A stretch of 29,810 nt of DNA from Saccoglossus kowalevskii (lineage: Eukaryota; Hemichordata; Enteropneusta; Harrimaniidae). Positions within the stretch are counted from its first letter, which is position 1; every line of letters begins with the position of its first letter. Both the position numbers and the translations under genes were made by a program. A model generated the notes under the pieces. That model did not search any database, was not told where the DNA came from, and saw nothing but the letters and a program-made list of their open reading frames with translations. This document shows positions 1-28,645 of the stretch, piece after piece. The stretch is from positions 1 through 29,810 of the forward strand of contig NW_003106253.1 in NCBI RefSeq assembly GCF_000003605.2. Direction: 5' to 3'.

Positions 1-467
1 TCATTCGATGTTAGCAACCTCTCATATGAGCCAACCGTAAAAGGTACAAACAAACAGCTTAAAACTTGAAAAGCGATTGAAAAGTTGTTAGATATGCGTG
101 TATATTTCCCCTAAGTAATTTCATATAGAACCCCGCAGAAAATTTTTTAAAATAAGTAAAAGTCTAAAAATATCATTTATGTTCGCAGATTGTACCACTG
201 TCCAAGTTTAAGAGGATAAACAAAGTGCTTACAAAGTTGTGAAAAGCTAGTGCAAAGTTGTCAGATTTACATGGAAATGTTACTTATGGTGTTAAATTAC
301 CGAGACCTGGAGTTAAATGTTCGGAAAAGTAAATAAATATTTCGTAAAATGCCGTTTGAATATCGTAGTTGCTCCCGAAGCACGTGGAATTTTGAAACAT
401 TCGCAAACATTTAATGGTCTCCAATTTCAAAAAATGACAAATGATTCTCATAGGTGAGTGGTCAGGT
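1..467 (+). repeat. M0, partial monomer at left edge
   Basis: The window opens inside subunit A, at the shared TTCGATGTTAGCAAC. Subunit B, subunit C and the partial D region follow. The 5S-like element belonging to this copy lies upstream of the window. Confidence 0.95.
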
Positions 468-558
468 GATCAACTGATAATAAAAGTAAAGATCAATTGG
501 TCGCGGTTAGTACCTGCATGGGAGACCAACTGAGACAACAGTCGGAGAATATGTTTTT
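468..558 (+). pseudogene. 5S rRNA-derived segment with Pol III-type internal promoter (M1, reference)
   Basis: Box C spans 505-527 and reads GGTTAGTACCTGCATGGGAG + ACC. Animal 5S rRNA genes have GGTTAGTACTTGGATGGGAG + ACC here, so the match is 21 of 23. Exactly 21 bases before it starts AAGTAAAG, in the place of 5S box A (AAGCTAAG or AAGTTAAG, also 21 bases before), and TCGG or a variant marks the intermediate element. In 5S these bind TFIIIA and recruit TFIIIC, TFIIIB and Pol III. The 5S loop E letters (AGTA and GGGAGA) are kept. A possible stem, CCAACTG with CAGTCGG, follows, then T5 at 554-558, enough for Pol III to stop. The first third of 5S is not recognisable and the ends do not pair, so it is no functional 5S gene. 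It could be a 5S-derived SINE remnant or a transcribed satellite RNA gene. Confidence 0.6.
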
Positions 559-599: not shown

Positions 600-775
600 G
601 TGCATCATTTCATACTCTAATGTCAAACATTTAAGAACAGAATTTGTGGAAATTTTTATAAAAGTTCCAGTACATGGAGAATTTTAAAAAATGCTTGTAT
701 TTTTAATGGAAAAACAGTTTTTGTAGTCTGCCCTTTTTTATCTAAAGCTGAAAAAAACAGCGTGCAAAGTTGTTC
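600..775 (+). repeat. Partial subunit E in M1 (right part only recognisable)
   Basis: From about 720 to 775 this stretch aligns by eye with the ends of subunits A and B: an AAACAG (or ACAAAG) then GTGCAAAGTTGT, ending in CAAAGCGATTG. In alpha-class monomers the match to the end of B is clearer (GCAGTCTGCACC against GCAGATTGTACC). I cannot align the left part, so the left boundary is only a projection from the ~175 bp spacing. Confidence 0.4.
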
Positions 776-950
776 AAAGCGATTGCAAAGTTTGTAGATT
801 TGCGTGTTTATTTGACCTAAATTGTTGCTATATCGAACCCTGCCGTTATAAAGTATGAAAAACGTATAAAAACCATGTAAAGCCTTCGATGTTAGCAACT
901 TGTCATATGAGCCAGCCGTAAAAGGTACAAACAAACAACTTAAAACTTGA
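776..950 (+). repeat. Internal subunit A of the monomer (in M1)
   Basis: Subunit A runs from AAAGCGATTGCAAAG to the next AAAGCGATTG, 175 bp later. Landmarks shared with B and C in the same order are: AAAGCGATTG, TAGATTTGCGTGT, ATATCGAACCCTGC, an A/T-rich stretch, GATGTTAGCAAC and ACAAACAA-CTTAAAACTTG. Its homologue recurs in every monomer. Confidence 0.7.
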
Positions 951-1124
951 AAAGCGATTGAAAAGTTGTTAGATATGCGTGTATATTTCCCCTAAGTAAT
1001 TTCATATAGAACCCCGCAGTAAAATTTTTTAAAATATGTAAAAGTCTAAAAATATCATTTATGTTCGCAGATTGTACCACTGTCCAAGTGTAAGAGGATA
1101 AACAAAGTGCTTACAAAGTTGTGA
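951..1124 (+). repeat. Internal subunit B of the monomer (in M1)
   Basis: Subunit B is 174 bp. It matches A in order: AAAGCGATTGAAAAG, TTAGATATGCGTGT, ATATAGAACCCCGC, an A/T-rich stretch, TATGTTCGCAGATTG and ATAAACAAAGTGCTTACAAAG. It looks like an old direct duplication of A, now well diverged. Confidence 0.7.
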
Positions 1125-1276
1125 AAAGCTAGTGCAAAGTTGTCAGATTTACATGGAAATGTTACCTATGGTGTTACCTTACCGAGACCTGGTGTTAAAT
1201 GTTCGGAAAAGTAAATAAATATTTCGTAAAATGCCGTTTGAATATCGTAGTTGCTCCCGAAACACATGGAATTTTG
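1125..1276 (+). repeat. Internal subunit C of the monomer (in M1)
   Basis: Subunit C starts at AAAGCTAGTGCAAAGTTGTC, 174 bp after B. It keeps TACCGAGACCTGG, which parallels TATCGAACCCTGG of A in alpha-class copies, then GTTAAATGTTCGGAAAAG and ATATCGTAGTTGCTCC, which parallel GTTATAAAGTATGAAA and TTCGATGTTAGCAACC of A. Its right end shades into a fourth, partial unit at about AAACGTTGGCAAAC. Confidence 0.6.
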
Positions 1277-3965: not shown

Positions 3966-4055
3966 GATCAACCGATAATAAAAGTAAAGATCAATCAGTC
4001 GCGGTTAGTACCTGCATGAGAGACCAACTGAGACAACAGTCGGATAATATGTTTT
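3966..4055 (+). pseudogene. 5S-derived segment, M5 (8-base upstream loss)
   Basis: Box C 4003-4025 has ATGAGAGACC; T4 end; upstream GTGAGTGG missing. Confidence 0.5.
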
Positions 4056-21588: not shown

Positions 21589-21679
21589 GATCAACCGATA
21601 ATAAAAGTAAAGATCAATCGGTCGCGGTTAGTACCTGCATGGGAGACCAACTGAGACAACAGTCGGAAAATATGTCTTT
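21589..21679 (+). pseudogene. 5S-derived segment, M25 (T run interrupted)
   Basis: Box C 21626-21648 unaltered. The T run is broken (TATGTCTTTGG); the next T4 comes three bases later in GGTTTTGCC. Confidence 0.5.
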
Positions 21680-27836: not shown

Positions 27837-28598
27837 GGCTTTGCCTTACACATTGAAATTACACTTACGCAATTTTAGTGCATTATTTCATACTCTAAAG
27901 TTAAACATTTAATAACAGAATTTGTGGAAATTATTATAAAATTTCCAGTTCATAAAGAATTTTAAAAAATGCTTGTATTTTTAATGAAAAAAACAGTGTT
28001 TGCAGTCTGCACCTATTTGTTCTAAAGCTGATAAAACAGCGTGCAAAGTTGTACAAAGCGATTGCAAAGTTTGTAGATTTGCGTGTTTATTTTACCTAAA
28101 TTGTTGCTATATCGAACCCTGGCGTTATAAAGTATGAAACACAAATAAAAACCATGTAAAGCCTTCGATGTTAGCAACCTGTCATATGAGCCAGCCGTAA
28201 AAGGTACAAACAAACAGCTTAAAACTTGAAAAGCGATTGAAAAGTTGACAGATATGCGTGTATATTTCCCCTAAGTAATTTCATATAGAACCCCGCAGTA
28301 AATTTTTTTAAAATATGTAAAAGTCTAAAAATATAATTTATGTTCACAGATTGTACCACTGTCCAAGTGTAAGAGGATAAACAAAGTGCTTACAAAGTTG
28401 TGAAAAGCTAGTGCAAAGTTCTCAGATTTACACGGAAATGTTACCTATGGTGTTAAATTACCGAGACCTGGAGATAAATGTTCGGAAAAGTAAATAAATA
28501 TTTCGTAAAATGCCGTTTGAATATCGTAGTTGCTCCCGAAACACATGGAATTTTGAAACATTGGCAAACATTTAATGGTCTCCAATTTCAGTAAATTT
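27746..28598 (+). repeat. M32, monomer shortened at its right end by deletion
   Basis: Alpha class after a second-form 5S-like element. The last ~50 bases of the normal monomer are missing because the deletion at 28598/28599 starts here. Confidence 0.93.
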
Positions 28599-28645
28599 AC
28601 CTGCATGGGAGACCAACTGAGACAAAAGTTCGAGAATATTTTTTT
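28599..28645 (+). pseudogene. Truncated 5S-derived segment, M33
   Basis: Only ACCTGCATGGGAGACC and the downstream part remain; a deletion removed box A, the intermediate element and the first part of box C. The T7 run is kept. This copy cannot have the internal promoter proposed for the others. Confidence 0.55.

Follow-up and report, generated by a model that had tools for sequence, protein, structure and literature searches.

A 5S-type internal promoter is carried by SINE3 elements, dispersed retroposons with a 5S-like head plus a tail; the Meloidogyne centromere box was also considered as a comparison. Satellites derived from 5S rRNA genes are in print for frogs (PMC11675491, PMC3342222), and PcP190 of hyloid frogs is described as having a 5S-like part ~70% like the host 5S, with RNA-seq transcription reported in two species (PMC11675491). 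In fish, a 5S-derived centromeric satellite of Hoplias malabaricus is cited in PMC3342222 and PMC5437419, and the pikes (Esox) are reported to have 220-base 5S units in tens of thousands, including some degenerate blocks, which were proposed as nascent satellites (PMC5437419). Within Tribolium, 5S repeats mixed with satellite are described for T. freemani (PMC11202950) and an enrichment of 5S rDNA in centromeric chromatin for T. castaneum (PMC7598501). Among plants, a 5S-derived satellite of the Plantago B chromosome is known through citing papers, and Cassandra is described as a repeated element that has a 5S promoter and occurs in tandem arrays (PMC7215508).

The window analysed here is a stretch of 29,810 bases, the whole of contig C108 in an animal assembly of 572 Mb and 4830 contigs. 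The reading favoured, with moderate confidence and on sequence grounds, is that it holds a composite satellite whose 5S piece is largely a passenger, transcribed by Pol III weakly or occasionally at most.

An 881-base satellite with 5S-like elements

A single head-to-tail array on one strand fills the window (positions 1–29,810, + strand, from box spacing and monomer coverage), with a consensus monomer of 881 bases covering 99.9% of it, and has the tandem arrangement of a 5S-derived satellite. The 33 monomers cut from the window share a mean pairwise identity of 95.5% (minimum, 90.0%), and their similarity is level across lags 1–11, so no higher-order repeat shows in the array. TRF reported no repeats in the window because its longest allowed period (500 bases) is below the monomer length. 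Each monomer contains three mutually diverged subrepeats of ~175 bases (consensus 311–835; pairwise z, 12.7, 8.3 and 6.7 versus shuffles), which map to positions 751–1275 (+ strand, ends approximate) in the first full monomer and are an older tandem repeat inside it.

A pattern for the 23-base box, GGTTAGTACYTGSATGGGAGACC, matched 33 sites in the window at up to three mismatches, all on the + strand, and none in 100 dinucleotide shuffles. In the unit cited by the initial annotation, the box chosen there (5S 70–92) lies at 505–527 (+ strand, pattern scan) and agrees with the host 5S at 22 of 23 bases; across the 34 units, agreement is 22/23 in 24, 21/23 in nine and 16/23 in one. The 21 of 23 bases originally given against the animal 5S consensus is correct; within the box the host gene reads TTGCATGG where the usual animal sequence is TTGGATGG, and the satellite has the same C as the host. 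The box A-like octamer claimed 21 bases before the box, AAGTAAAG, was found exactly in 29/34 units and with at most one mismatch in 33/34, and the host gene has AAGTTAAG at the identical distance. A stretch of at least four T near the position at which the 5S gene ends, where a type 1 promoter has its terminator, is likewise present in 33/34 window units (the exception, at 21,626, has T3) and in 105 of the 106 monomers compared below. This run begins 49 bases after the box start in 23/34 units, and does so as T4+ in both the consensus monomer and the host gene, of which two of five printed copies have one extra C that places a T4 run at 50 bases. The chance of a T-run at the exact 5S place is 0.9%, and within 3 bases 6.4%, which counts against the favoured reading.

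Placed by 5S numbering, in which box A is given as 50–64 and the intermediate element as 67–72 (PMC3342222), the elements of the cited unit lie on the + strand at 485–499 (box A place, AGTAAAGATCAATTG), 502–507 (intermediate element place, CGCGGT versus CGTGGT in the host), 515–532 (box C in published numbering, 5S 80–97) and 554–558 (a T5 run in the terminator place). With 5S spacing kept, the consensus monomer matches the host at 10/15 positions of box A, 5/6 of the intermediate element and 16/18 of box C. The TCGG that had been assigned to the intermediate element is misplaced: it corresponds to 5S positions 62–65, at the end of box A, occurs in 17/34 units and reads TTGG in the cited unit. 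The feature had been started at 468, and 5S +1 itself corresponds to about position 436; the 5S-equivalent stretch, from there to the end of the T-run, covers 436–558 (+ strand, 5S numbering) and corresponds to a predicted transcript of ~120 nt.

The promoter had been placed in every unit and the set counted 34 times. The count holds for the box sites, of which there are 34 at a spacing of ~881 bases (range, 815–889 bases; 32 of 33 spacings at 869–889 and one at 815), but a complete box preceded by the box A-like octamer is present in 33/34: from the unit with its box expected at 28,592 (28,592–28,614, + strand, unit-by-unit comparison), box A, the intermediate element and the start of the box are missing.

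The B box of type 2 promoters is GGTTCGANTCC. The consensus had no such site in either orientation at up to two mismatches, a tRNA search of the window found none, and a tRNA-type promoter was rejected on both counts.

Comparison with the host's 5S genes

Of 18,217 first-look candidates in the host, an Rfam 5S search scored 47, all above the cut-off (105–113 bits); these genes sit on contigs C3485, C2212 and C3801. A 31-base host-gene pattern with at most one mismatch has 65 sites, of which 52 are on the same three contigs (50 exact) and 13 elsewhere. The host 5S genes occur in two unit lengths, about 1139 bases (C3485) and about 1580 bases (C2212, C3801). Among the matches listed, the 881-base arrays and the 5S-gene arrays are on different contigs, the satellite being separate from 5S rDNA, and two 5S gene loci (L017, L019), compared with their spacers, match this satellite and the 216-base satellite described below solely within the gene.

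In an ungapped alignment anchored on the box, the consensus monomer equals the host gene at 41/52 positions over 5S 49–100 (484–535 of the cited unit, + strand, alignment to host 5S), including an unusual TGCATGG that is common to the host 5S genes and the satellite (blastn, E 2e-7). A gapped local alignment extends along the greater part of the gene with a score of 208, the highest among 1000 base shuffles being 140. Outside the three promoter elements, identities with the host are 15/37 (5S 1–37), 7/12 (38–49), 6/7 (73–79) and 6/22 (98–119). Homology to the host 5S exceeds the 23-base box, yet it fades outside 49–100. The initial annotation had proposed this alignment, naming a lack of similarity beyond the box as an outcome that would speak against its promoter claim; given the match over 52 bases, TGCATGG and the alignment score, the result therefore speaks the other way.

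A 5S origin of the box region is supported by these comparisons, and the satellite is read as a probable 5S-derived composite because of the core identity with TGCATGG and the score, because the octamer, box and T-run are spaced as in the gene, and because host 5S genes do found satellites, as in the 216-base family with its whole 5S-like gene. That an AT-rich satellite resembles the 5S box by mere coincidence is so improbable as to be negligible: the dinucleotide shuffles, the alignment score, the blastn value and a reversed pattern with no site genome-wide all reject it, and nothing was found in its favour.

The covariance-model search suggested at the outset returned no RF00001 match in the window at gathering level, and none in bases 1–2700 at E up to 10. 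The RNA fold of the predicted transcript was no better than shuffles in three units (z, -1.1, -0.5 and 0.1), and no covariation was seen in two candidate hairpins when site counts were viewed by eye. Neither the Rfam match nor the secondary structure of a 5S rRNA gene (RF00001) was found in these searches and folds.

The second satellite and the distribution of both families

The 33-base spacer pattern of the 881-base unit has 231 sites in the assembly at up to three mismatches (reversed control, 0), and the unit occurs, among the matches listed, on C108, C1044, C2575, C4689 and C1694. On C1694 (L009, 1983–10,000) the array stops mid-monomer against DNA matching no satellite studied here, and a short reverse-transcriptase-like reading was noticed by eye near 3,980–4,055. 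A phage search using the flank of this array gave no match, and viral contigs scanned for a 41-base exact pattern gave none.

The box pattern, at up to two mismatches, has 8102 sites in the whole genome (reversed control, 0). Arrays of a 216-base satellite were found in the sampled parts of C111, C242, C404, C554 and C576 (within L062–L066), and short pieces of C2833 and C981 (L068, L069) belong to the same family. Its unit is a full-length 5S-like gene plus a spacer of ~97 bases, with local duplication of the ~118-base gene alone. In L062 and L064 Rfam gives 36 matches to 5S, of which 34 exceed the cut-off (57.7 to 99.1 bits); the other two are clipped by the end of the stretch. Copies number in the thousands (28-base pattern, up to three mismatches, at least 4194 sites), and the five sampled stretches hold 73 box matches and 75 matches to the 28-mer.

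Subtracting the 28-mer sites, the 231 spacer-pattern sites of the 881-base unit and the 52 true genes from the 8102 box sites leaves an estimated ~3,700, possibly diverged 216-base units or a further 5S family. These sites, outside all three groups, lend something to the proposal that the 5S part arrived with a 5S-headed SINE (SINE3-like) or other retroelement, as does the existence of such elements, Cassandra being described as forming tandem arrays in plants (PMC7215508). We consider this very unlikely: no poly-A or other SINE sign was noticed in the unit, and the first 100 of the 8102 box sites lie in arrays.

Pairing was analysed in 61 units of 205–225 bases, others being dropped. The 216-base consensus keeps 34/34 tested pairs; relative to the host gene three pairs have changed on both sides (compensatory) and two on one side, and all still pair. 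Among the units, the pair survives in 53 of 197 one-sided changes (expected, 54.3; sd, 2.3) and in 4/7 two-sided changes. Divergence is 6.2% at paired sites, 5.6% at other gene sites and 8.5% in the spacer, and within the promoter 7.0% in box A, 3.8% in the intermediate element and 8.4% in the C box. The gene part is somewhat better kept than the spacer; its pairs and C box are not. Because the consensus keeps pairs while units break them as at random, the founder is read as a structurally constrained 5S gene and the family as now drifting.

The 881-base unit could have had as its source a whole 5S gene of the 216-base lineage rather than a fragment, with ends decayed past recognition. At the sole core site that differs between host and 216-base consensus (5S 61), the 881-base consensus has the 216-base family's base, and core identity is 80.8% to the 216-base consensus and 78.8% to the host gene; in addition, the T-run is in place and the upstream flank is weakly like the host gene (P, 0.07 against dinucleotide shuffles and 0.03 against 602 other satellite windows). 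The same flank, however, gives P of 0.14 and 0.15 against the 216-base consensus, the downstream flank tested alone gives P of 0.25 to 0.51, and the 216-base spacer is not significantly similar to the 881-base monomer (score, 117, against a mean of 107 and a highest value of 145 in 300 shuffles). Such a source seems quite unlikely.

Contig C4830 (L067) is mitochondrial; its COX1 lies on the strand opposite ND1 and COX2 and is separated from COX2 by tRNA-Gln and tRNA-Ala. ND1, COX1 and COX2 fit TGA as Trp, AGA as Ser and AAA as Lys at positions that we take to be conserved, and COX1 has many ATA codons at positions that are presumably Ile as a rule.

Promoter conservation and relation to described systems

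Conservation was assessed in 106 alignments from five contigs, each covering at least 780 of the 881 positions, with shorter ones dropped. The box is exact in 78 monomers, with one mismatch in 25, two in two and seven in one, and AAGTAAAG is present in 95. Compared to all monomer windows of the same length, the core falls at the 49th percentile, box A at the 22nd, the intermediate element at the 20th and box C at the 80th, and the 5S-equivalent flanks at the 5th (6–48) and 15th (101–119). The C box (98.9%) exceeds these flanks (94.2% and 94.5%) in conservation but does not significantly exceed the monomer overall, in a test that array homogenisation blunts. Only one of the 11 core differences to the host falls inside 5S 70–92 (P, 0.008), and this sparing is the strongest point in favour of a function having been retained. 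Its weight is reduced because the span was originally picked for resembling 5S, because P is 0.18 for the C box in published numbering (80–97; for 80–92, P, 0.03) and because the 216-base family has no such sparing. The sparing, and a C box kept above its 5S-like flanks, would both fit a retained promoter, against the favoured reading.

Each monomer might be a functional Pol III unit of type 1, with its promoter under selection and the arrays yielding many short satellite RNAs. The elements at 5S spacing and the T4+ runs in 33/34 units, the box with at most one mismatch in 103/106 monomers, the T4+ run in 105/106 and the spared 70–92 span are consistent with this, as is the transcription reported for the 5S-like frog satellite PcP190 (PMC11675491). 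The degraded box A, a box conservation not significantly above that of the monomer and the ordinary fold in three units argue against it, and the transcription of PcP190 is described as taking in the whole repeat, beyond the 5S-like part (PMC11675491). Overall, working units appear unlikely. Carriage of a mainly passive 5S piece in a composite satellite is preferred because box conservation among the 106 monomers is ordinary and because the C box of the 216-base family diverges (8.4%) like its spacer (8.5%).

The favoured composite monomer would consist of a host-type 5S piece (at least positions 49–100), the three older subrepeats and other AT-rich DNA. A 5S fragment may have been captured, or a whole gene may have decayed, inside it, and the captured piece would span the internal control region. 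The monomer was presumably multiplied as one unit, with unequal exchange or rolling circles as possible means of its spread. TFIIIA binding to the satellite C box is plausible, as the putative site is nearly intact, and candidate Pol III transcripts would be ~120 nt long, end at the T-run and be weak or occasional at most.

Within one genome, working 5S genes, a full-length 5S satellite and a monomer with little but the promoter span recognisable make up a series. It is tempting, though doubtful, to suppose that satellites otherwise unlike one another repeatedly contain the 5S internal control region and retain it, forming fields of TFIIIA or Pol III sites; just as tentatively, the spacing of promoter and terminator might have been kept as the 5S body wore away, for satellite RNA or chromatin organisation. 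If the box binds TFIIIA, the arrays would offer a ready system in which to ask whether Pol III promoters aid satellite spread or silencing; if it does not, they would warn that even a persuasive promoter may reflect nothing more than descent.

Literature searches for the 23-base box sequence and for '5S-derived' invertebrate satellites found no paper, though an invertebrate case may already be in print. Like PcP190, the 881-base array is a satellite containing a 5S-like part, but the PcP190 unit has ~190 bases with a 120-base conserved 5S-like region, whereas here the unit has 881 bases and only 5S 49–100 is clearly alike; PcP190 is closer to the 216-base family. The Hoplias satellite shares the 5S derivation. 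The amplified 5S rDNA of Esox resembles the 216-base family in its short 5S units and very many copies, although most Esox genes look functional while the 216-base units break pairs as at random. Tribolium provides an invertebrate likeness, but there 5S genes adjoin the satellite, and here a decayed piece lies within a long monomer. Cassandra is a plant LTR retroelement, and no LTR-internal structure was noticed in the 881-base unit; SINE3 shares the 5S-type promoter but is dispersed, whereas the 881-base unit is tandem. Compared with the cases consulted, the 881-base unit is distinct as a long composite monomer in which little beyond the promoter span is retained.
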